NCBI RefSeq assembly: GCF_000226975.2
Contig: NZ_CP019285.1
Coordinates: 3,782,001 to 3,846,000 of the forward strand
Direction: 5' to 3'
DNA length: 64,000 nt
Source of the DNA: Halobiforma lacisalsi AJ5
GTDB lineage: Archaea; Halobacteriota; Halobacteria; Halobacteriales; Natrialbaceae
Under the pieces are notes generated by a model, which worked only from the letters and a program-made list of their open reading frames with translations, was not told the origin of the DNA and searched no databases. The position numbers were made by a program, and so were the translations under genes. This document shows, one piece after another, positions 35,252-48,257 of the stretch; positions within the stretch are counted from its first letter, which is position 1, and each line of letters opens with the position of its first letter.

Positions 35252-35315
35252 TTGTACTAACACAACCGAGAATTCGCAACCGAATTTGCTCTACACCAAA
35301 CACAATTGTTTTAGG
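35252..35315 (+). promoter_or_regulatory. Promoter region of cbiT operon
   Basis: The 177-base gap before cbiT is markedly AT-rich. TTTTAGG (35309-35315) lies about 27 bases before ATG 35339 and is the likely TATA box. The 8-bp palindrome ACAATTGT (35302-35309) touches it, and TTGT-N6-ACAA lies upstream (35252-35265). These are plausible regulator sites for the ten-gene operon that follows. Confidence 0.5.
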
Positions 35316-35338: not shown

Positions 35339-35917
35339 ATGTCATCCATCGCGTTGCCACACGACGCGAAGGCCGGACCGACGAAACCCGAGGTTCGGGC
35401 CGTCCTCCAGTCGAAACTCGCGCTCGAGGAGGACGACCACTTCGCGGAGGTCGGCTCCTGTACCGGGGCCGTCACGATCGACGCCGCACGGACGGCGGGA
35501 CGCGTGACCGCCCTCGAGCGGAAGGCGGACCGGCTCGAGACCACCGAGAAGAACCTCGCGGCGAACGCGGAGTCGACGCGCGCCGACGTCGAACTCCGGA
35601 ACGCGGAGGCGCCCGACGGGCTCCCCGACGATGCAGACGCGCTCTTCCTCGGCGGGAGCCGGAACTTCGAGGCCGTCCTCGATCACGCGGTCGAGACCGG
35701 GGTCGACCGGATCGTGATGAACGTCTCACGGCTCGAGGTAGCGGGCGCCGCGGCGGAGGCCTTCCGCGAGCGCGACCTCCTCGAGGAGGTCGTCCAGTTC
35801 CAGGTGAGCCACGGCTACGAACTCGCCGGCGCGACGAGTTTCGACGCGGACAACCCGGTGTACATGCTCGTCGGGAGCGCGGCCGAAGGGAGCGCGGACC
35901 GAGGTGAGCCGCGATGA
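35339..35917 (+). CDS. cbiT: Cobalt-precorrin-6B C15-methyltransferase (decarboxylating) CbiT
   Basis: The 192-residue protein has a class I SAM methyltransferase fold with LPHDAKAGPTKPEVRAV at the start, the SAM-binding loop VGSCTGAVTID (Cys replaces the second Gly of the common G-x-G-T-G), ALERKADRLETTEKN after strand 2 and FLGGSRNFEAVLDHA. CbiT methylates C15 and removes the C12 acetate carboxyl. It is first in the overlapping run of cbi genes; its stop overlaps the cbiL ATG (ATGA). The Cys-for-Gly change is seen in other archaeal CbiT sequences as far as I recall. Confidence 0.9.
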   Translation: MSSIALPHDAKAGPTKPEVRAVLQSKLALEEDDHFAEVGSCTGAVTIDAARTAGRVTALERKADRLETTEKNLAANAESTRADVELRNAEAPDGLPDDADALFLGGSRNFEAVLDHAVETGVDRIVMNVSRLEVAGAAAEAFRERDLLEEVVQFQVSHGYELAGATSFDADNPVYMLVGSAAEGSADRGEPR

Positions 35918-36777
35918 CGCTGTACGGCGTCGGGCTCGGCCCCGGCGACGCAGACCTCGTGACCGTCCGCGGCAAGCGCGTCCTCGAGCGTGCGGACGTC
36001 GTCTACTCGCCGGGACGGCTCTCCCGGACGGTCGCGCTCGAGCACGTCGACGAGTCGACGATCGGCGACCTCGAGTTCCCGATGACGAGGGACGAGGAGA
36101 AGCTCCGCAGCGCCTGGAAAGCAGCCGCCGAGGAGGTGGCCTCGACGGCCGCGGACGGCGACGTCGCGTTCGTCACCCTCGGCGATCCGAACGTCTACTC
36201 GACGTTCGGCCACCTGCACCGGACGATGGCGGCGTTTCACCCGGACGTGGAGCTCGAGATCGTCCCTGGGGTCAGCGCGGTGACCGCGTTCGCGACCGCG
36301 CTCGGCGTCGAGATAGAGGCCGGGGCGGGACTCGCGCTACGGGAAGCCGCCGGCGGCGCGAGTCCGACCGGTCCGGACCGGATGATCCTGTTCAAGGTCA
36401 CCGACGCGCCCGCGACCCACGAGGGACTCGCCGAGGCCGGCTACGAGGTGACCTACGGCCGTCGCCTGTTCATGGAACAGGGCGAGACGGTCGTCACCGA
36501 CGACCCCGACGCGATCGCCGAGCGGGACTACTACACGCTCGCCTACGCCGAACGGGCGGACCTCGAGGTCGAGCCGGCGACGGCGGCCTTCGAGACCGAG
36601 ACCCCGAACGCCGACGGCGCGACGGAATCCGAGTCCAGCGCGGAGACCGACGCGAGCGCGACGCTCGAGACGGCGGAGCCGATCCGAGCCGAGTCTCGCG
36701 GCTCCGAGCTGGCCGATCTCGAGCGTAGCGAAGCCTTAGAGGGCGGCGACTGGCACCGAGACCGGGACTGGTACTGA
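35914..36777 (+). CDS. cbiL: Cobalt-factor II C20-methyltransferase CbiL
   Basis: The 287-residue protein has the tetrapyrrole methylase fold with LYGVGLGPGDADLVTVRG (CbiL-type start), VTLGDPNVYSTFGHL and IVPGVSAVTAFAT. It places the methyl group at C20, the first step after the sirohydrochlorin branch. The last about 60 residues form an acidic, low-complexity extension ending in WHRDRDWY; within it lies a palindromic DNA element shared with cobN. The gene overlaps cbiT by four bases and cbiF by one base. Confidence 0.92.
   Translation: MTLYGVGLGPGDADLVTVRGKRVLERADVVYSPGRLSRTVALEHVDESTIGDLEFPMTRDEEKLRSAWKAAAEEVASTAADGDVAFVTLGDPNVYSTFGHLHRTMAAFHPDVELEIVPGVSAVTAFATALGVEIEAGAGLALREAAGGASPTGPDRMILFKVTDAPATHEGLAEAGYEVTYGRRLFMEQGETVVTDDPDAIAERDYYTLAYAERADLEVEPATAAFETETPNADGATESESSAETDASATLETAEPIRAESRGSELADLERSEALEGGDWHRDRDWY
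36689..36704. repeat. Palindromic element copy in cbiL
   Basis: GAGCCG-N7-CGGCTC (36686-36704) forms a hairpin in the coding sequence of the CbiL tail. Read on the minus strand, 36689-36703 gives AGCCGCGAGACTCGG, matching 14 of 15 bases of a segment inside the cobN insert. Confidence 0.45.
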
Positions 36778-37679
36778 TGACCGGAAACACGGACGCAGAC
36801 GGCGAGAATCGTATCGATACCGACGGGGAGTCCGGCCTCCCGGACGAGTTCGACGAGCGGATCGTCGAGCACAGCGCCGGCGACGAGCAGGAGGGGATCC
36901 CGTTCGTCGGCGCCGGCCCCGGCGATCCGCGGCTGCTGACCGTCGCCGGGAAGGAACTGCTCGAGGACGCGGACCTCGTGGTTCACGCCGGCTCGCTGGT
37001 CAACAGCGAACTCCTCGAGGCCTACTGCGACGGCGCCGAACTCGTGAACTCGGTCGGCAAGGACCTCAAGGAACTCGTTCCCCTGATGCGGGACGCCTAC
37101 GAGGAGGGCCGGACCGTCGTCCGCCTCCACAGCGGCGATCCCGCGATCTACGGGGCCGCCCTCGAACAAATGGACGCCCTGGAGGGCGAAGGCGTGCCGA
37201 CCTACTTCGTTCCGGGCGTCACCTCCGCGTTCGCGGCCAGCGCGACGCTGCGGACGCAACTGACGCTCAACGAGGTGGCGAACCACGTGGCGTTCACCCG
37301 ACCGCAGGGCAAGACCCTGAGCGAGGAGGAAGACCACGTCTCCGAGTTCGTGGGGATGGGCGACGTGACGACCTGTCTCTACCTCGGGACCCACGCCGTC
37401 CGGGAGACGATGGAGCGGCTGCTCGCGGACGGCCACGACCCCGAAACGCCGGTCGCGGTGGTCTACCACGCCTCCTGGCCGGACGAGGACGTGATCGTCG
37501 GGACGATCGACGACATCGCGGACAGGGTCGAGGCGGCCGGCTACCGCGCCTCGGCGCTGGTCGTCATCGGCGAGGCCGTGACGGGTGCGGGCTACGAACG
37601 GTCCTACCTCTATGGCGACTGGGCGAACGACGGATCGAACGGCGGATCGAACGACGCCGACGAAGCTGAGATCGACTGA
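36777..37679 (+). CDS. cbiF: Cobalt-precorrin-4 C11-methyltransferase CbiF
   Basis: The 300-residue protein has the methylase domain from about residue 40: IPFVGAGPGDPRLLTVAG, VVHAGSLVNSELL (the CbiF/CobM-specific A-G-S-L), RLHSGDPAIYGA and VPGVTSAFAASA. It methylates C11. A 38-residue acidic tail precedes the domain, as in its neighbours. It overlaps cbiL at the TGATG junction and is seven bases from cbiG, so all three are one transcript. Confidence 0.93.
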   Translation: MTGNTDADGENRIDTDGESGLPDEFDERIVEHSAGDEQEGIPFVGAGPGDPRLLTVAGKELLEDADLVVHAGSLVNSELLEAYCDGAELVNSVGKDLKELVPLMRDAYEEGRTVVRLHSGDPAIYGAALEQMDALEGEGVPTYFVPGVTSAFAASATLRTQLTLNEVANHVAFTRPQGKTLSEEEDHVSEFVGMGDVTTCLYLGTHAVRETMERLLADGHDPETPVAVVYHASWPDEDVIVGTIDDIADRVEAAGYRASALVVIGEAVTGAGYERSYLYGDWANDGSNGGSNDADEAEID

Positions 37680-37686
37680 CATCGAC

Positions 37687-38673
37687 ATGAGTACGGACGA
37701 CACCACTGAGACGACCGACGACGGATCGGACGGCGGTCACTGCTCGACGCCCGACTCGGACGGCGAGGTCGCCGAGGAGATCGCGATCGTCGCCTTCGAA
37801 CGCAAGATGGCGACCGCCGAGGAGATCGCGGCCGAACTCGCGGACCGTTACGAGCGGATCGAGATCCTCGAGTACCACGGCGACGTCTTCGAGGAGCACT
37901 GGGGCGAGTACGACTGTTTCGTCGGCCTGATGGCCTCGGGCATCGCGATGCGGAAGACGGCCCACCTGCTCGACGACAAGTGGGACGATCCCGCGATCTG
38001 CGTCGTCGACGAGGAGTTGACGTGGGCGATCCCGATCACGGGCGGCCACCACGGCGCGAACCAGGTCGCACAGGACCTGGCGACGATGGGTGCCGTGCCG
38101 GCGATGACGACCGCGAGCGAGGCCGCCGGCAAGCAGGGCGTCGAGTCCCGCGCGAAGGCGATGGACGCCCACGTCGTCAACGGGGATTCGACCGTCCAGA
38201 CGAACCTCGCCGTCCTCGACGACGAACTCGGCCCCGTCGCCCGACTGGACGGCCCGAAGGCGGTGCTCGTCGGTGACGACGTGACGGTCCTCAAACGCAA
38301 CAAGGAGGACGGCGTCGTCATCGGCACGGGCAGCGTCTCCGGCGCGAGCGCGGACGCCTTCCTCGAGGCCTGGGAGGCGGCCCTCGAGCGCACCGAGTAC
38401 GGGTTCGAGGACGTCGAGTTCGTCGCCACCGCGACGCGGAAGGAAGACGAGGAGGGACTGCTCGAGGCGGCCCGGGAACGCGACCTGGGCGTCGTCGCCT
38501 TCGACAAGGAAACGCTGCTCGAGCACGAGGGGCCGACCCCCTCGAAATCGAAGGAGTTGATCGGCTGGCCGGGCGTCTCCGAGGCGAGCGCCATCGCCGG
38601 GGGGCGCGAGCAGGAACTGGTACTCGAGAAGATCGGTTACGAGGACGAGGTAACGGTGGCGATCGGCCGATGA
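37687..38673 (+). CDS. cbiG: Cobalt-precorrin-5A hydrolase CbiG
   Basis: The 328-residue protein opens the C20-C1 lactone and releases acetaldehyde. After an acidic N-tail of about 30 residues, the N-terminal domain has FVGLMASGIAMRKTAHLL, CVVDEELTWAIPITGGHHGANQVAQDL split across the conserved core, and the C-terminal CbiG domain has ATATRKEDEEGLLEAA and GWPGVSEASAIAGG. ATG 37687 is chosen; an upstream frame to 37585 lies inside cbiF. Its stop overlaps the first cbiH ATG (ATGA). Confidence 0.92.
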   Translation: MSTDDTTETTDDGSDGGHCSTPDSDGEVAEEIAIVAFERKMATAEEIAAELADRYERIEILEYHGDVFEEHWGEYDCFVGLMASGIAMRKTAHLLDDKWDDPAICVVDEELTWAIPITGGHHGANQVAQDLATMGAVPAMTTASEAAGKQGVESRAKAMDAHVVNGDSTVQTNLAVLDDELGPVARLDGPKAVLVGDDVTVLKRNKEDGVVIGTGSVSGASADAFLEAWEAALERTEYGFEDVEFVATATRKEDEEGLLEAARERDLGVVAFDKETLLEHEGPTPSKSKELIGWPGVSEASAIAGGREQELVLEKIGYEDEVTVAIGR

Positions 38674-39545
38674 GCGCCGAGGACGCCGACGCGGACACGA
38701 CCGAGGGTACCCCCGACGATCACGGCACCCTCTACGTCGTCGGCATCGGCCCCGGGCTGCCCGCCCACATGACCCAGCGCGCGAAGTCGGTCATCGAGTC
38801 CGCGGACGTTGTCATCGCCTCGAACCTCTACCAGGAGTTCCTGCGCGAGGACGGCACGATTCCGCCGGAGTCACGGACCGACGAGGACGGGATCGCGACC
38901 CGCGAGGACGGGAGCCAGCAGGAGATCGTTCGCTCGACGATGGGTCGCCAGATCGAACTCGCCCGCGCGGCGTTCGACTACGTCCGCGAGGGGAAGACGG
39001 TCGCCCACGTTTCGGGCGGCGATCCCTCCGTCTACGGCAAGTCCGACCTCATCTTCAAGATGGCCGAGGAGGAGTCTGCCACGGACGTCCCGATCGAGAT
39101 CGTCCCCGGAGTGACGGCGGCGCTCGGCGGAGCGGCAAACGTCGGCGCGCCGCTGTGTAACGACTTCTGTACGGTCTCGCTGTCGGACAAGTGGCGCGGC
39201 TGGGACGAGATCGAGGAGAAACTGCGCGCCGCGGCGGTCTCCGATTTCGTGATCGTCCTCTACAACTGCTGGCGCAACTACGAGCGGGCGGTCGAGATCG
39301 TTCGTGAGGAACGCACCGACGACGCCCTCGTGGCGATCGTCAACGACGCGGGCCGTGCGGACGCCGGCCGCAACGGCGAGAGCCGGCACGTGACGACGCT
39401 CGGCGAGGCCGCCGACCACGACGACAAGGTGTCGGGGATGGGCACTTCGCTGATCATCGGCACCCACGAGACCGAAACCTGGAGCAACGACGACCGAACG
39501 TACCTCGTCACCCCGCGCGGCGGGCGTGACGTCGACGACTTCTGA
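38670..39545 (+). CDS. cbiH: Precorrin-3B C17-methyltransferase CbiH, first paralog
   Basis: The 291-residue methylase has YVVGIGPGLPAHMTQRA, HVSGGDPSVYGKSDL, IVPGVTAALGGAANVGAPLCNDFCTVSLSD (the CbiH ring-contraction family core) and VLYNCWRNYERA. CbiH methylates C17 and contracts the ring from porphyrin to corrin size. The paired cysteines in LCNDFCTVS are notable and differ from the second copy, where the first is V and the second is V/S. It is followed six bases later by the second paralog. Haloarchaea are known to carry two CbiH copies; which does the canonical step is not clear. Confidence 0.88.
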   Translation: MSAEDADADTTEGTPDDHGTLYVVGIGPGLPAHMTQRAKSVIESADVVIASNLYQEFLREDGTIPPESRTDEDGIATREDGSQQEIVRSTMGRQIELARAAFDYVREGKTVAHVSGGDPSVYGKSDLIFKMAEEESATDVPIEIVPGVTAALGGAANVGAPLCNDFCTVSLSDKWRGWDEIEEKLRAAAVSDFVIVLYNCWRNYERAVEIVREERTDDALVAIVNDAGRADAGRNGESRHVTTLGEAADHDDKVSGMGTSLIIGTHETETWSNDDRTYLVTPRGGRDVDDF

Positions 39546-39551
39546 CCACAC

Positions 39552-40550
39552 ATGAGCACGGAGACAGACACGGATACGGACGCGGACGCTGAAAACGAGG
39601 AATCGACGTCGAACTGCGGCGCGTCGGGCGCCGAATCGGAGACGAGCCGCTCGAGTTCGAAGTGTGGTGGTTCGAGTGGGAGTGACGACTCGAGCGGGTC
39701 GAAATGCGGCGCCTCGAGTTCCGAAGACGACTCGAACGAAGAAGAGGTCGGCGCGACCGTCGAGGACTTCGACGCCGACCCTGGCCAGCTCGTGGCGGTC
39801 GGCCTCGGCCCCGGTCAGCCCGAGGGGATGACCGAGCGCGCGAAGACGGCGCTGCACGAGGCCGAACACATCGTCGGCTACACGACCTACATCGAACTGC
39901 TGCCGGACGAGATCACCGAAGGGGCCGACGAGATCTACGACACGCCCATGTGCGGCGAAGTCTCCCGCACGGAGGAGGCGATCGACCGGGCGCTCGCGGG
40001 CAACGACGTGGCGATCGTCGGCAGCGGCGACCCCAACGTCTACGCGCTCGCCGGGCTGGCACTCGAGATCCTCGAGTCCAAGGGCGCGACGGCGACGATG
40101 GTCGACTTCGAGGTCGTTCCGGGCGTTCCCGCGGCCCAGTCCTGCGGCGCTCGGCTCGGTGCGCCGCTCGTCAACGACACCGTCTCGATCTCGCTGTCCG
40201 ATCACCTCGTGCCGATGCCCGAGATCGAGTCCAGGCTCCACGCGGCCGCGAAGGAGGGCTTCACGATCACGATCTACAACCCCTGGAGTCGGAAGCGCCG
40301 CGAGAACTTCGAAAAAGCCTGCGAGATCCTCCTGACCCACCGCGACGAGGACACCCCGGTCGGCATTGTCCACGGCGCGGGCCGCGAGGACGAAGAAGTG
40401 GTAATCACGGAACTCGGCGACCTCGAGGAGTTCGGCGAGCGCGAGATCGTCGACATGACGACGACGATCGTCGTCGGGACGGAGGACACCTACGTCTGGG
40501 ACGACCGGATGGTACGGCCCCGCGGCTACGAGACGAAGTACGACTACTGA
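39552..40550 (+). CDS. cbiH: Precorrin-3B C17-methyltransferase CbiH, second paralog with Cys-Gly tail
   Basis: The 332-residue protein has a CbiH-type methylase domain from about residue 78 (VAVGLGPGQPEGMTERAKTA, IVGSGDPNVYALAG, VPGVPAAQSCGARLGAPL, ISLSDHLVPMPEI, TIYNPWSRKR). Before it lies an unusual Ser/Asp-rich tail with three copies of a C-G-A/G-S motif (Cys22, Cys38, Cys52), spaced 16 and 14 residues. The tail could bind a metal or cluster, or be a carrier for cobalt, but nothing proves it. A ferredoxin gene follows 13 bases later, which fits a redox-linked ring contraction. Confidence 0.88.
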   Translation: MSTETDTDTDADAENEESTSNCGASGAESETSRSSSKCGGSSGSDDSSGSKCGASSSEDDSNEEEVGATVEDFDADPGQLVAVGLGPGQPEGMTERAKTALHEAEHIVGYTTYIELLPDEITEGADEIYDTPMCGEVSRTEEAIDRALAGNDVAIVGSGDPNVYALAGLALEILESKGATATMVDFEVVPGVPAAQSCGARLGAPLVNDTVSISLSDHLVPMPEIESRLHAAAKEGFTITIYNPWSRKRRENFEKACEILLTHRDEDTPVGIVHGAGREDEEVVITELGDLEEFGEREIVDMTTTIVVGTEDTYVWDDRMVRPRGYETKYDY

Positions 40551-40563
40551 CTCGATAAACCAC

Positions 40564-40830
40564 ATGCCACGATACGAAATCACGATCGAGAAGGACGCCT
40601 GCGACGGGATCTTCGCCTGCCTCACCCGGGATCCGCGCTTCGTGGAAGCCCCGGACGGGCTGGCGACGATCGATCCCGACGCGGACCCGGTCTACGACTG
40701 CGACGGCGAAGTCAGCGACGACGGCGAGCGAGTGGTGGCCGCGTTCGACGACGACCGCCTCGAGGAGGCCAGACGGGCCGCAGCGGCCTGTCCGACGGAC
40801 GCGATCATCGTCGAGGAGGTGGACGAATGA
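40564..40830 (+). CDS. Small ferredoxin-like protein in cobalamin operon
   Basis: The 88-residue protein has ferredoxin features: ITIEKDACDGIFACLTRDPRF with Cys13 and Cys19, and a C-terminal AAACPTDAIIVEE with Cys76 followed by Pro. An extra Cys46 lies in VYDCDGE. The C-x5-C plus C-P layout fits a single 3Fe-4S (or 4Fe-4S) cluster ferredoxin. It is coupled to the next gene by an ATGA overlap. A role as electron donor for a reductive step, for example the precorrin-6A reduction whose usual enzyme CbiJ is absent here, is possible but unproven. Confidence 0.82.
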   Translation: MPRYEITIEKDACDGIFACLTRDPRFVEAPDGLATIDPDADPVYDCDGEVSDDGERVVAAFDDDRLEEARRAAAACPTDAIIVEEVDE

Positions 40831-41603
40831 CCGAGACCACCGGGACGGACGAACCGGTCAAGGACGACGCTCTCGAGATCGAGGTTCCGGCCGACCCCCT
40901 CGCCGGCCACCCGGCGTCGGCGTACTTCTGGGGACACGTCGCGGGCGGTGGTCGCGTCTCGGAAGACGGCCTCGAGGTCGTCACCGGCGACGAGCGTGCC
41001 GCTCGCGTGCTCGCGGCGATCGCGGGCGCGGACGGTGGCGACCTCGACCGCGAGACCACGAGTCGCGAGTACGCCCACGACGCCTCGATCACCCGGACCG
41101 AGGAGGACTACACGCTCTCGCTCTCGACCACCGGAGACGACGGGACGCTGCTCGGCCGCCGCTCGCCGCTCGGACTCCCTGTCGACGGGCGCGGAAACTA
41201 CCGGTTCGGCGCGTTCGCGGACCACCGGCGCGAACTCCTGCGGGGTCTGCTCGAGGGCTGTGGCACGATCTGTTTCAAGTCCTCGAGCGGCACCGTCGGC
41301 ATCTCGTTCGTCCACGAAGACCGGGGACTCCTCGAGAGCGTCCGGGACCTGATCGCCGACCACCCGATCGACGCCCCCTGTGACGACGTCGCGGAGACCT
41401 CGTCGGGGAGCTACTGGTTCGGCCTCGACGACGACGCGGTCCCCGCGTTCGGACGCTGGCTCTACGAGACCGCCGAGGGGACCGGCCTCTACGCGCCGAG
41501 TCGCCGCCGAAAGCTCGAGCGCAGCCTAGAGCAAGCGGATCTCGGCGACGGTGGCAGTGGCGGTGACAGTGACGACCCAGGTTCGGGAGGTGAGCAGTCG
41601 TGA
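40827..41603 (+). CDS. Cobalamin operon protein with degenerate LAGLIDADG-like repeats
   Basis: The 258-residue soluble protein is not a known corrin enzyme. Residues 34-42 (FWGHVAGGG) and 138-146 (LRGLLEGCG) both align with the nine-residue LAGLIDADG core; each is followed by strand-rich sequence (GTICFKSSSGTVGISFVH) and then a helix like that of homing endonucleases and WhiA-type proteins. The acidic catalytic residue before the final Gly is replaced by Gly41 and Cys145, so cleavage is unlikely. A DNA-binding or structural role inside the operon is inferred. It overlaps the ferredoxin (ATGA) and cbiX (GTGA). Confidence 0.7.
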   Translation: MTETTGTDEPVKDDALEIEVPADPLAGHPASAYFWGHVAGGGRVSEDGLEVVTGDERAARVLAAIAGADGGDLDRETTSREYAHDASITRTEEDYTLSLSTTGDDGTLLGRRSPLGLPVDGRGNYRFGAFADHRRELLRGLLEGCGTICFKSSSGTVGISFVHEDRGLLESVRDLIADHPIDAPCDDVAETSSGSYWFGLDDDAVPAFGRWLYETAEGTGLYAPSRRRKLERSLEQADLGDGGSGGDSDDPGSGGEQS

Positions 41604-42817
41604 CGGACGCGGCGGCGACCGGCGTCGACGACGAAGCCGTCCTCCTGGTCGGCCACGGGTCGCGACGCGAGAAGTCCAACGAACAGGTCCGGGAACTGGC
41701 CGCTGGCCTCGAGTCGCGGCTCGGCGTCCCCGTCGACGCCGCCTTCCTCGAACTCGCGAAGCCGTCGATCGAGGACGCGATCGCCGACCTCGCGACGGTC
41801 GTCTCGGAACTGACGGTCGTCCACTGCTCGCTGTTCGCCGCGAGCCACGTCAAAAACGACGTCCCGGTCTCGATCGAGCAGGCGCGTGCGGAACACGACG
41901 GCCTGGCGATCAACAACGGCAGGCACCTGGGGATCCACCCGGCCATGCTCGAGGTGCTGGACGATCGCGCCGCCGCGGTCGAGCGGGACCTCGGCGTCGA
42001 CCGCGAGGACGACGAGGTCACGGTCGTGCTCTGTGGCCGGGGCTCGAGCGATCCGGACGCCAACGCCGACGTCCACAAACTCGCTCGCCTCCTGTACGAG
42101 GGACGGGGGTTCGACCGCGTCGAGGCCTCGTTCGTCGGCGTCACGGAGCCGACCCTCGAGGAGACGCTGCACGATCTCTCCAAGCACCGGCCGGACGCCG
42201 TCGTCGTGCTCCCCTACATGCTCGGGGACGGCGTCCTCACCCAGCGGGTACGGGACTGGACGGCCGACTTCGACGAGGACTACCCTTACGTCGACGCCCT
42301 CGCGGGCGACCCGCTCGGGACCGACTCCCGGCTGCTCGACGTCTTCGCCGACCGATGGCAGGAGGCCCGCACGGACAGCGTCGAGATGTCCTGTGACACG
42401 TGCAAGTACAAGGTCGGCCTCGAGGGCTACGAGGAGGACGTCGGCGGCGCGCGGGCGATGCTGCGTGCGCTGACCCACCAGGAGAGCCATGCCGACCGCG
42501 ACGACGTCGACGACGAACCCCACAGCCACGACGCGCCCGCGAAACACGTCGCCGTCTGTACGAACCGGACGTGCGCCGAGGCGGGCGCGCCGGCCGTCCT
42601 CGAGCGCCTGCGACAGGCGGTCCGGGACGCTGACGACTGCGACGCACGGGTTACGCGCTCGTCCTGTCTGGGACGCTGTGGCGACGGGCCGATGGTCGCG
42701 GTCTATCCCGACGGGGTCTGGTACGGCGACGTCGCCGAAGACGACACGGACCGGATCGTCGGGGAACACCTCACGGACGACCGGATCGTCAGCGACCTCG
42801 TCGACCAGACGCTGTGA
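41600..42817 (+). CDS. cbiX: Sirohydrochlorin cobaltochelatase CbiX with C-terminal 2Fe-2S domain
   Basis: The 405-residue protein has two CbiX-type halves: VLLVGHGSRREKSN (His19) and VVHCSLFAASHVKNDVP in the first, VTVVLCGRGSSDPDAN and VVVLPYMLGDGVLTQR in the second. A His/Asp-rich linker (about 294-312) follows, then a thioredoxin-like 2Fe-2S domain with CTNRTC, SSCLGRC and VAVYPDGVWYGDV. CbiX inserts Co2+ into sirohydrochlorin at the start of the anaerobic route. The GTG start at 41600 overlaps the previous stop (GTGA). The middle MSCDTCKYKV adds two more cysteines. The role of the cluster is unknown. Confidence 0.93.
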   Translation: MTDAAATGVDDEAVLLVGHGSRREKSNEQVRELAAGLESRLGVPVDAAFLELAKPSIEDAIADLATVVSELTVVHCSLFAASHVKNDVPVSIEQARAEHDGLAINNGRHLGIHPAMLEVLDDRAAAVERDLGVDREDDEVTVVLCGRGSSDPDANADVHKLARLLYEGRGFDRVEASFVGVTEPTLEETLHDLSKHRPDAVVVLPYMLGDGVLTQRVRDWTADFDEDYPYVDALAGDPLGTDSRLLDVFADRWQEARTDSVEMSCDTCKYKVGLEGYEEDVGGARAMLRALTHQESHADRDDVDDEPHSHDAPAKHVAVCTNRTCAEAGAPAVLERLRQAVRDADDCDARVTRSSCLGRCGDGPMVAVYPDGVWYGDVAEDDTDRIVGEHLTDDRIVSDLVDQTL

Positions 42818-42881: not shown

Positions 42882-43253
42882 ATGAGCTGCCACGAAATCG
42901 AAGCGCTACGACTCGGACTGATAACCGTCCTCGGCGTCGGGGACGACAGCGACCGCGAACACGCACGACAGGAACTCGAGGGCCACCTCGAGGGACCGAT
43001 CGAGGGCCTCGTCGAGGCCGACAGCCTGGCCGAGATCGAACGCCACCTCGACGCGGCCCTGGTCGACCTCGAGAGCGACCTCGCCGCGATGGAGGCCGAC
43101 GATCCCGCTTACGACTACACGCGGGGGCGACTGCTCGAGCTTCGAAACGCCGAGCGTGCGGTAAAGCGGTTACGAACGCAGGGCGAGAGCGTCGTCGACG
43201 GGCTGGGCGAGGCCCACGACGCGCTCCACGAGACGTTCCCGGTCGAAGAATGA
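42882..43253 (+). CDS. DUF3209 family protein
   Basis: The 123-residue protein begins MSCHEIEALRLGLITVLG, the start I associate with DUF3209, a family found almost only in haloarchaeal and related cobalamin operons. The rest is helical (LEIERHLDAALVDLESDLAAM; RNAERAVKRLRTQGESV). Cys3 and His4 could bind metal. It has no known activity. Position after cbiX suggests a cobalt-handling or assembly partner of the chelatase. ATG 42882 is used; an upstream frame lies inside cbiX. Its stop overlaps the next gene (ATGA). Confidence 0.82.
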   Translation: MSCHEIEALRLGLITVLGVGDDSDREHARQELEGHLEGPIEGLVEADSLAEIERHLDAALVDLESDLAAMEADDPAYDYTRGRLLELRNAERAVKRLRTQGESVVDGLGEAHDALHETFPVEE

Positions 43254-44644: not shown

Positions 44645-45944
44645 ATGGGCTACGGCGACCACGGCTCCGGAGGGCGTCCGGACCTCGGGCCACCTCCACG
44701 CGGCGGCGATAGGGCGGATCGAACGAGTCGGAGACTACTCCCCGACGGCGGACAGGCAGAAGTCGAAGAACCCGAGGAGGAGGAAGGCGACGACGAACCC
44801 TCCGAAACTGAAGCCAGCGGAGAGGACGAGAGCGACGAGCAGATGGGCGAGGAGCCGACTGCGGAAGACGACGAAGCGGAACCGGAGGAAGACGAATCCG
44901 AACCCGAGGCAGAACCGGACTCCGCAGACGAATCGACCGACGAGGAATCGACCGACGAGGAACCGGCTGGCGAGGAACCGGCTGGCGAGGAATCGACCAA
45001 CGAAGAACCGGCTGGCGAGGAACCGGCTGGCGAGGAATCGACCAACGAAGAACCGGCTGGCGAGGAACCGGCTGGCGAGGAATCGACCAACGAAGAACCG
45101 GCTGGCGAGGAACCGGCTGGCGAGGAATCGACCAACGAAGAACCGGCTGGCGAGGAACGAGGAACCGGCTGACCAGGAATCGACCGACGAGGAACCGGCC
45201 GACGAGGAAGACGAGCGAGAGGAGGGCCACGCTGACGATGCCGAGGACGTCTACGAGGGCGACGACGCCTCCGGCGTCCTCCATCTCGACCTCGACGGGC
45301 TCTTTCTGGATCTGCTCGGCCTCGAGGTCAACCTGAACCAGGTCACGCTCGACGTCTCCGCTCGGCCGGGAGGGAACAACCTGCTCGGGAACCTGCTCTC
45401 GGCAGTGACGGGCCTGCTCGACGGTCCGAGCGCCCTGGTGAACAAGGCGAAATCGATGCTCGGCAAACCCGCGGCGTGGCTTCGATCGTTGGCCGGTGGC
45501 GTCCGGGACCAACTCGGGTCGCTGGCGAGGAAGCCGGGGCAGTTCCTTCGCGGGTTGGTTCGCAAGCCGATGGAGCTACTCCGTGGACTCGGTAGCGGCG
45601 AGACGGAAACGCCGGAAGAACCACCGGAGGAAGCGGACGTCGAGGCCGACGAGGAGGAGCCCAAACCCGAAGAGGGTGACGAGGAGACGGCCGAAGGCCC
45701 GGGTCCGATCTCCAGAGTCACGGGCTGGATACGGGACCGATTCGCCGCGGCCGGAGGCTGGGTGAAGGAGAAATTCGCCGGCCTCGTGCCCGGCTTGCCG
45801 GTCGAGGAACTCATCGCGACGGTCGTCCGGGAAGTCGTACAGGCGCTGCTCGAGCAGGCCGAAGGCGAGGACGGTCGTGAACGTGAACGTGAACGGGCGG
45901 ACGAACAGCCGGAAGCGGACACGCAGGCGGAGGCAGGATCATGA
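44645..45944 (+). pseudogene. Acidic repeat protein with LLGL/NLLGNLL module, frameshifted
   Basis: The ATG at 44645 opens a 175-codon frame (to 45172) of Glu/Ala/Thr repeats that stops early. From about 45159 the sequence continues in another frame to 45944 without a nearby start (first ATG 45405). A 7-bp tandem duplication GAGGAAC (45152-45165) explains the shift; removing it joins the frames into about 430 residues. The second part has LFLDLLGLEVNLNQVTLDVSA, NNLLGNLLSAVTGLLDG, then amphipathic basic helices (WLRSLAGGVRDQLGSLARKPGQ). I recall similar LLGL-NLLGNLL modules in haloarchaeal and bacterial hypothetical proteins; function unknown. Its end overlaps the next gene (ATGA). Sequencing error is an alternative cause. 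Confidence 0.75.
44957..45158. repeat. 45-bp coding minisatellite
   Basis: Four near-perfect 45-base units (44957-45001, 45002-45046, 45047-45091, 45092-45136) and a partial fifth encode the 15-residue repeat EEPAGEEPAGEESTN. Units 2 to 4 look identical. The tract ends at the 7-bp duplication that breaks the frame. Confidence 0.92.
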
Positions 45945-46441
45945 GTGAGGAATCTACTACCGGTACGAGCACGAGTACGAGTTCGGCCGCGGAATCGTTG
46001 ACCGGGCGTATCGACTACGAGGAGATCACCCAGAACATCGACGTCGGCGAACTCGTCGAGGGCACCCAGTGGGAGGACGATATCGACGACGAGCAGCCGC
46101 TCGGTGAGGCTCTGGGCGGCCTGATCGGCGCGATCATCGGCCGAAAGCTCGGCGAGAGCCTCGGTCGGATGATCGGCGAGATGACCCTCGACGAACTGCT
46201 CGGAACGGATAGCGAAGCGGAGGAGGAAGAGGAGGAAACCGCCGACGAAGACGAGGAAACCACGGAAGAAGAGGAGGAAGCCGGGGAGGAAGAAGCCGAC
46301 GAGGGAGACGAGCAAGTCGAAGCCGAATCCGAGTCCGGAGACGAGAGCGAAGAAGCCGAAACCGACGAGGAAGGTTCGGAGACCGACAGCGAATCGGAAT
46401 CCGCCGACGAAACCGACGAGGACGACAACGAGGAGGCGTAA
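45941..46441 (+). CDS. Acidic glycine-zipper protein B
   Basis: The 166-residue protein has a Ser/Thr-rich start, a short ordered part (RIDYEEITQNIDVGELVEG), then a perfect glycine zipper with Gly at 55, 59, 63, 67, 71, 75 and 79 (GGLIGAIIGRKLGESLGRMIG), and a C-terminal half of almost only Glu, Asp, Ser and Ala. Such zippers pack helices tightly or insert into membranes. The next gene repeats the same zipper. Its ATG overlaps the end of the frameshifted gene. I do not recognise the family; oligomerisation at a membrane or particle is inference. Confidence 0.75.
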   Translation: MSEESTTGTSTSTSSAAESLTGRIDYEEITQNIDVGELVEGTQWEDDIDDEQPLGEALGGLIGAIIGRKLGESLGRMIGEMTLDELLGTDSEAEEEEEETADEDEETTEEEEEAGEEEADEGDEQVEAESESGDESEEAETDEEGSETDSESESADETDEDDNEEA

Positions 46442-46495
46442 CCCCGTGCTCGTGACGCACCCACTCACGTCCTGGCGGCGCTCGAGGTGGTCCCC

Positions 46496-47311
46496 GTGAC
46501 CGACGGAACGGACCTGAAGGGGATGATCGCCGACGAGGTGAGCAACCAGGTCGGGGTCGGCGATCTGCTCGGGGACGGCAGCATCGAGGACGAGGTCGAC
46601 GCGGGCGAGATCGGTGCGGCGGTCGGCCGGCAGTTCGGCGAGAGCCTCGGCCGGGAGATCGGCGCCTCGATCGGTCGCAACGTTCACGAGGCACTTGCGA
46701 CCGAGTTGGCCGGGACCGAGGAGGACGCGGAAGGCGACGAACACGAGGGAGAAGGCGAGGGCGACGACGAGACCGGAGAACCGCTTCGAACGACGGTCAC
46801 GACGGCCGTCCGAGATGGGGTCAGCGAGGCGTTCGAGGACAGCAGCGTGCGGGAACCGCTCGAGTCGGTAGCCGATAGCGCGACGGGTGAGACGGATCTG
46901 CTGGGCGAGGAGGCGGCAGAAGAGGAGGCAGCAGAAGAGGAGGCAGCAGAAGAGGAGGCAGCCGGAGGGGGGGCGGAACCGGACGAACCAGAACAGCCGA
47001 CAGAGGAAGAGGAGGAAGCGACGGAAGCCGACCAAGACGAAGGGGAAACCGACCCCGAGGAGGCCGAGGACGGCCCGTCCGCCGACGAACTCGAGGACCT
47101 CAGGCGCGAGACGCTCGAGGATTTCCTCGGGGTGATGTCCTACGAGGACCTGCAGTCGGTCGCAAAGGACGTCGACGTCAAGGCGAACCTGAGCCGCGAG
47201 GAGATGACCGAGGAGATCATCGAGGCCGTGACGGGCGAGGAGAGCGAAGGAAGCGACGGGGACGACGGGGACGACGAGGAAGAGGCAGACGCAACGGCGA
47301 ACGCCGAGTAA
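46496..47311 (+). CDS. Acidic glycine-zipper protein C with SAP/Rho-N-like end
   Basis: From GTG 46496 (another GTG at 46487 is possible) the protein has 271 residues. Residues 40-60 form a glycine zipper with Gly at 40, 44, 48, 52, 56 and 60 (GAAVGRQFGESLGREIGASIG), closely matching protein B in GESLGR-x-IG. A second ordered part (TTVTTAVRDGVSEAFEDSSV) follows, then Glu/Ala repeats (EEEAA). Near the C-terminus, LEDFLGVMSYEDLQSVAKDVDV and the following helix resemble a SAP/Rho-N-type helix-extended-helix motif. Function unknown. It lies 54 bases after protein B on the same strand. Confidence 0.72.
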   Translation: MTDGTDLKGMIADEVSNQVGVGDLLGDGSIEDEVDAGEIGAAVGRQFGESLGREIGASIGRNVHEALATELAGTEEDAEGDEHEGEGEGDDETGEPLRTTVTTAVRDGVSEAFEDSSVREPLESVADSATGETDLLGEEAAEEEAAEEEAAEEEAAGGGAEPDEPEQPTEEEEEATEADQDEGETDPEEAEDGPSADELEDLRRETLEDFLGVMSYEDLQSVAKDVDVKANLSREEMTEEIIEAVTGEESEGSDGDDGDDEEEADATANAE

Positions 47312-47384
47312 CTGTTGCGGTTCCCGGCAGACTCGAGGCGAGACGATACACCGAGCGAATCGAGAACGACCGCGAGGATACACA

Positions 47385-48257
47385 GTGACAGACCCCACGC
47401 GCGAGCAGGTGACGGAGATCCTGGACGAGACCGACGCGGCGAGCGCCCGGCTTATGACGGCCGGGGACGAGGGCGAGGACGAGGCTCCCGCCGACGCCGA
47501 CGAGTTCCGCGAGGCGGCCCGGAAGGCGAACGAACTCGTGGCGTCGGCCGATCCAGACGCGTTGCTCGAGGCGGTCGGACTCGACACCCTCCCCGACGGG
47601 TCGGAGCCGTCGTCGATCCCCGAGGCGATCTCCGAGGGTGACGCCGACGCGGTCGAGGACCTCGAGCGGTTGCTCCGACTCGCAGATCTCGGGGACCGGG
47701 TCGACGAGGACGAGGTGGCGAGCGACCTCGACGTGGCCGTAGACGGGCTGCAAGCGGCTACTCGAGGGGGCGACGGGGAGACGGAGACGGGAGCGGAAAC
47801 GGCGCCAGAGGAAGGTGAGAGGGCCGACGCCGAGCCCAAAGAGCACGGAGAGCCGTCCGAGGATGGGGACGGCGAGTCCGAAGACGGGGCGGCGGACGAC
47901 CTCGAGGAACGGCTCCGTGACGCCGTGAAGTCGAACGTCACGGAGTTCAGCGACGGGATCGACCGACTCCGCGATCAACTCGAGGGGATGGCGGAGGGTG
48001 ACGCTGACTCAGGAGCCGACTCCGAATCCGAATCCGGAGAACCTGACCGGGACGAACCTTCGGACGGTGAGGACGACGGCCTCCTCGAGTCGGACCTCGG
48101 AGCGGGCGGGCGCGACTCCCCCAGCGGCGCGACCCGCCACTCGACGATGGCCCCGTCGCCGTCGAAGCGGGCGGACCTGCGTGCCGTGCGCCGGTTCTCG
48201 ACGATGCCGGAGCGGAACCAACTGTTCGACGAAGACGAGGGTCAGGATACGGACTGA
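47385..48257 (+). CDS. Acidic hypothetical protein D of the cluster
   Basis: From GTG 47385 a 290-residue protein is encoded. An ordered N-terminal part of about 125 residues is helical (REQVTEILDETDAASARLM, DEFREAARKANELVASADPDALLEAVGL, AVEDLERLLRLADLGDRV). A Glu/Gly/Asp-rich middle follows, then a second helix (LEERLRDAVKSNVTEFSDGI) and finally a short basic, Ser/Pro-rich segment (SPSKRADLRAVRRFS) before an acidic end. The basic tail may bind the acidic partners or nucleic acid. I recognise no family. It is 73 bases after protein C, likely in the same transcript. Confidence 0.72.
   Translation: MTDPTREQVTEILDETDAASARLMTAGDEGEDEAPADADEFREAARKANELVASADPDALLEAVGLDTLPDGSEPSSIPEAISEGDADAVEDLERLLRLADLGDRVDEDEVASDLDVAVDGLQAATRGGDGETETGAETAPEEGERADAEPKEHGEPSEDGDGESEDGAADDLEERLRDAVKSNVTEFSDGIDRLRDQLEGMAEGDADSGADSESESGEPDRDEPSDGEDDGLLESDLGAGGRDSPSGATRHSTMAPSPSKRADLRAVRRFSTMPERNQLFDEDEGQDTD

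Follow-up and report, generated by a model that had tools for sequence, protein, structure and literature searches.

A catalytically dead LAGLIDADG protein in the haloarchaeal cobalamin operon and its possible role at the CbiX step

The gene at positions 40827..41603 (+ strand) of the window, the 64,000-nucleotide stretch of the Halobiforma lacisalsi AJ5 genome analyzed here, encodes a 258-residue protein that the open reading frame, its sequence, an AlphaFold model, fold searches and orthologs securely identify as a two-repeat LAGLIDADG protein. Our computations place this fold, with its lost catalytic acids, acidic sheet and Cys-Cys-His set, in one slot of the cobalamin operon of Halobacteria, with five gene-less operons as exceptions. 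We tentatively favor, at somewhat short of an even chance, the explanation that a homing endonuclease was domesticated, lost its activity and may now act as an accessory subunit at the CbiX cobaltochelatase step, where it would handle cobalt via the Cys-His set. Domesticated LAGLIDADG proteins are already known (WhiA, HO). In the openly readable literature, however, neither a search for LAGLIDADG proteins linked with cobalamin or cofactor biosynthesis nor one on DUF3209 returned a report of such a link. If true, this would be, to our knowledge, the first LAGLIDADG protein to serve cofactor biosynthesis instead of DNA or RNA.

Operon context and fold

The initial annotation had described the open reading frame and within it two nonapeptides about 100 residues apart, FWGHVAGGG (residues 34-42; 40926..40952, +) and LRGLLEGCG (residues 138-146; 41238..41264, +). 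Both were recovered where it had placed them, with starts that differ by 104 residues. Public records label the gene "cobalamin biosynthesis protein" or "hypothetical protein". It overlaps the stop of the ferredoxin gene at its 5' end (ATGA) and the start of cbiX at its 3' end (GTGA), and the operon is thus tightly packed around it. The gene order is cbiT, cbiL, cbiF, cbiG, cbiH1, cbiH2, ferredoxin, the LAGLIDADG-fold gene, cbiX-[2Fe-2S], DUF3209 and a beta-propeller protein. The first six genes form the upstream remainder of the operon (35339..40550, +; Pfam) in a conserved order, and cbiT was named by position only because it had no Pfam match. Pfam identified a single-cluster [4Fe-4S] ferredoxin (Fer4_15; 40564..40830, +) directly 5' of the gene and, directly 3', the CbiX cobaltochelatase with a C-terminal thioredoxin-like [2Fe-2S] domain (41600..42817, +). 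The DUF3209 protein (42882..43253, +; Pfam) belongs to the same module as the ferredoxin, the LAGLIDADG protein and CbiX. Its helical model (pLDDT 94.6) matched the hypothetical protein TTHB059 of Thermus thermophilus in Foldseek (E 2e-5, 35% identity), and its conserved His and Glu residues suggest that this helical protein may bind metal.

A LAGLIDADG-like fold, with the expected strand and helix pattern after each motif, had been proposed from the sequence, and profile-profile search and structure prediction with fold comparison had been named as checks. The AlphaFold model, calculated from a 43-sequence alignment (pLDDT 84.5, pTM 0.82), shows that pattern twice as helix-strand-strand-helix-strand-strand; the two LAGLIDADG helices are arranged as a pseudo-dimer and each is followed by strand-strand-helix-strand-strand, as in the LAGLIDADG superfamily. 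The best 50 matches listed by Foldseek against the PDB were all LAGLIDADG proteins, and VIA-align 2 gave Z scores of 15.3 for WhiA, 14.8 for PI-PfuI and 14.1 for I-DmoI over 170-190 residues. Sequence profiles led to the same superfamily. Pfam LAGLIDADG_3 (PF14528) was matched by 23/43 orthologs at E<=1 (best E 2.2e-4), below the curated cut-off, and a PHROG endonuclease family by 11/43 (best E 1.3e-5). The window's own copy matched neither; searches of Pfam, NCBIfam and the PDB with this sequence alone were empty, and the family profile (the window copy and 42 relatives, 52 relatives having been drawn from the genome collection) gave one chance match only against PDB sequences. Using hhalign with trimmed endonuclease alignments, we aligned the family profile with haloarchaeal intein LAGLIDADG domains along both repeats over ~186 colinear columns (probability 93%, score 52, E 2.6e-7), and nine neighboring gene families used as controls scored <=22. 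Each half of the protein, taken alone, aligned best with the corresponding endonuclease repeat. The two repeats showed no significant alignment with each other, so internal symmetry cannot serve as evidence. AlphaFold, Foldseek, VIA-align 2 and hhalign all agree on the fold that the initial annotation had suspected.

Catalytic positions, conserved residues and surface charge

At the catalytic column of either motif (position 8), haloarchaeal intein endonucleases have exclusively D or E. The window copy has G41 and C145 at these positions. Of 96 distinct orthologs, 57 have S, 25 D, 7 N, 4 G and 3 A at the catalytic position of repeat 1; at that of repeat 2, 95 have Cys and one has Ala. The earlier statement that Gly and Cys replace the catalytic acids is thus correct for the window copy and does not hold as a family rule. 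The idea of a dead endonuclease stood up: the repeat-2 acid is gone from all 96 orthologs and the repeat-1 position is drifting, and with its catalytic acids lost the protein should not cut DNA.

Another set of residues is kept instead. The second motif runs into C145-G-T-I-C149 (41259..41273, +), in which C149 is present in 96/96 and C145 in 95/96 orthologs, and His84 (41076..41078, +), in the hairpin after strand 3 of repeat 1, is invariant (96/96). Judged by sequence, these three (near-)invariant residues are candidate ligands for a soft metal such as cobalt. By analogy with I-CreI, C149 presumably faces the former DNA side, beside the catalytic position. Other conserved positions are E143 (96/96), R80, R139 and R226/K229; the last two bound R226-R-R-K229 (41502..41513, +), the conserved start of the C-terminal helix, which aligns with the RK motif ending intein endonuclease domains.

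The basic DNA-binding sheet of active endonucleases was not found. K/R make up 7.7% and D/E 17.5% of the sheet-strand residues of the family; in haloarchaeal intein endonucleases these shares are 14.8% and 10.8%. Because acidity is a general trait of haloarchaeal proteins, the difference in charge carries less weight than it otherwise would; the endonucleases in this comparison are likewise haloarchaeal. The profiles of the family and of these intein endonucleases (LAGLIDADG_3, PF14528) align colinearly through repeat 1, repeat 2 and the RK region at the C terminus, while the operon protein differs in having Cys or variable residues for D/E, no basic sheet, no intein and no mobility.

In several Natrialbaceae (L005, L008, L013, L021, L022, L023, L027, L033) the first hairpin of repeat 1 carries a variable insertion of ~15-20 residues, rich in Arg and charged residues. 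A few orthologs (G281:C1:315666-316379, G014:C3:2530753-2531565, G173 and G183) matched in two pieces, which frameshifts or lengthy insertions may explain; in G014 a second CbiG copy is present as well.

Distribution and the operons that lack the gene

A profile search found the gene in 145/292 Halobacteria genomes, and when 393 genomes from across the phylum were sampled, every significant match fell in Halobacteria. It was present in 145 of the 150 genomes with CbiG and in none of the 142 without, its distribution lying wholly inside that of CbiG (Fisher p ~1e-78, a value that ignores kinship among genomes). Its upstream neighbor was the ferredoxin gene in 76/78 loci and its downstream neighbor cbiX in 77/78. 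These class-wide counts bear out the long-term residence of the gene in the cobalamin operon that had been proposed. A divergent ortholog in G021 (L115:3951-5922) lies outside the cbi operon, where it is followed by genes for a rhodanese and a CDF cation-efflux transporter; these neighbors, a single case, point to metal and thiol chemistry.

Five genomes (G001, G007, G128, G268 and G052) have the operon and lack the gene, and in all five CbiX has a His-rich tail. The operons of G001, G007, G128 and G268 form one clade; ferredoxin and DUF3209 are absent from them as well, and their CbiX has the tail in place of the [2Fe-2S] domain. Ferredoxin and DUF3209 are both retained in G052, a genome of the same genus as the window, and the His-rich CbiX copy of G052 starts exactly at the vacant gene slot. 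Of the gene-positive loci scored for CbiX type, 75/76 have the [2Fe-2S] form and one (L047) the His-rich form. The association of CbiX type with gene presence gave a Fisher p of 2e-7, yet it reflects only about two independent events.

Haloarchaeal cbi operons fall into two lineages. The first combines the LAGLIDADG protein with ferredoxin, DUF3209 and CbiX-[2Fe-2S]; the second (L136, L137, L138, L145) has none of these and a His-rich CbiX, and COX1 is missing in 3/4 of its genomes. As a marker of aerobic life the gene was only partly borne out: COX1 is absent from three of the five gene-less genomes (G001, G007 and G128, which are probably anaerobes on this ground) but present in G268 and G052.

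Possible functions of the protein

How a dead endonuclease could serve the CbiX step may be pictured as follows. An ancestral homing endonuclease would have been domesticated and become a permanent part of the cobalt-early B12 operon in Halobacteria, and its descendant would no longer act on DNA and would serve CbiX instead. Where the two repeats meet, the former metal-binding centre, which would now have thiolates, may hold Co(II) and pass it on to CbiX; metal binding, the partner and the direction of transfer are what we infer here. The protein would thereby do the job of the His-rich CbiX tail found in the few gene-less genomes. Such a tail of CbiX-L has been proposed as a metal store and delivery device (PMC7689651), and if it works in this way, the LAGLIDADG protein would be dispensable beside it. 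CobW and the His-rich CbiX-L tail would be functional analogues, given their proposed supply of cobalt to the chelatase (PMC7689651); CobW, however, is a G3E GTPase, and we claim no sequence or fold relation to it. To its module we would also assign ferredoxin, the CbiX [2Fe-2S] domain and DUF3209, which perhaps keep cobalt and early intermediates reduced in aerobic cells. This cobalt-handling proposal draws on the swap with a His-rich CbiX in 5/5 gene-less operons, in G052 at the exact slot. Counted against it are the small number of about two independent swap events, the additional loss of ferredoxin and DUF3209 in the four-genome clade, the His-rich CbiX of the gene-positive locus L047, the one ortholog with Ala at position 145 and the fact that the CDF transporter neighbor in G021 is one case. 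A bolder version, which we consider rather unlikely, holds that the Mg-binding catalytic centre was rebuilt with cysteine as a cobalt site, making the protein a metallochaperone of the B12 chelatase, a stand-in for the His-rich CbiX tail and an aerobic haloarchaeal adaptation to the oxygen-sensitive cobalt-early pathway.

Among the alternatives, a scaffold or ferredoxin dock ranks first, followed by a regulator and then an enzyme. The protein might hold CbiX, ferredoxin and the early methylases together, or dock ferredoxin to allow electron transfer to a corrinoid intermediate, without handling metal itself. We regard this as unlikely. The place between ferredoxin and cbiX, fixed in 76/78 loci, the conserved residues and the joint absence of ferredoxin, DUF3209 and the CbiX [2Fe-2S] domain in the G001/G007/G128/G268 clade would all fit a scaffold, but the invariant Cys pair and His would be left unexplained, and G052 lost the gene alone while ferredoxin and DUF3209 were kept. 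Less likely again is a dead LAGLIDADG regulator that recognizes a cbi operator in the manner of WhiA, perhaps together with a metal or a corrinoid as ligand, or paired with ferredoxin as its Fe-S partner (cf. WhiA/WhiB). The initial annotation had named a WhiA-like DNA-binding regulator and a scaffold side by side. The N-terminal domain of WhiA (DUF199) is likewise a dead two-repeat LAGLIDADG fold in a cellular role and the best structural match (Z 15.3), and the gene was never found without the operon. WhiA, however, is a transcription factor of Gram-positive bacteria with a C-terminal helix-turn-helix, whereas the present protein is archaeal and operon-bound, has an acidic sheet and aligned with WhiA over the LAGLIDADG part only; after that part the AlphaFold model contains no helix-turn-helix, only a helix at residues 224-243 and a short tail. 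Its gene also lies mid-operon with overlapping starts and stops. An operator- or promoter-like element, TACACCAAACACAATTGTTTTA (35292..35313, +), does precede cbiT as the sole match (<=1 mismatch) in the whole 4.38-Mb genome, and almost every one of 55 loci examined across the class has a strongly conserved sequence near CTACnnCAAnCAAAATTGTTTTA just 5' of cbiT. We rejected the LAGLIDADG protein as its reader: none of the five gene-less genomes has lost the element, which is near-exact in G001, G007 and G128 and slightly diverged in G268 and G052. Some factor reads it, but this protein hardly does. These observations do not support the WhiA-like regulator.

It is more doubtful still that the protein is a pathway enzyme filling the CbiD (EC 2.1.1.195) or CbiJ (EC 1.3.1.106) gap. 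The published gaps were confirmed, with CbiD and CbiJ each in 0/145 genomes, and genes of the cobalamin cluster including HVO_B0055 of Haloferax volcanii have been published as gap candidates (PMC8305020). HVO_B0055, listed there as an unassigned open-issue gene of this cluster (PMC8305020), occupies the same slot between cbiX1 (B0054) and B0056/cbiH2 (B0057), and we equate the two by gene order only. A substitute should be present wherever the operon runs without CbiD and CbiJ, but G001, G007, G128 and G052, all within the 145-genome sample (G268 lies outside it), carry the operon and lack CbiD, CbiJ and the LAGLIDADG-fold gene alike. Sharing the gaps without having the gene, they make it unlikely to bridge them; Foldseek and VIA-align 2 gave no resemblance to a methyltransferase or reductase, and the methylation already has a published candidate in CbiH1. 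These phyletic data remove the gene as a good candidate for either gap, and the fold and dead active site make the unassigned gene in the HVO_B0055 slot testable. A selfish homing endonuclease, still active or recently inactivated, is hardly credible. Fold and homology, and the D kept at the repeat-1 position in 25/96 orthologs, would suit it, but the gene occupies the same slot in nearly every operon class-wide, with no operon-free copy and no intein, intron or free-standing selfish gene as its setting, and it shows purifying conservation with the repeat-2 acid gone in 96/96 sequences.

Other domesticated or repurposed LAGLIDADG proteins are the HO endonuclease (PMC7282813) and the maturases, of which bI3 was among the Foldseek matches. 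HO and bI3 act on DNA or RNA, whereas the nucleic-acid surface seems to be gone from the haloarchaeal protein.

Farther along the window, at 44645-48257, several very acidic proteins are encoded in a row; they carry EEPAGEEPAGEESTN tandem repeats and motifs resembling IGRxLGESLGRxIG, and no relation to the operon was seen.
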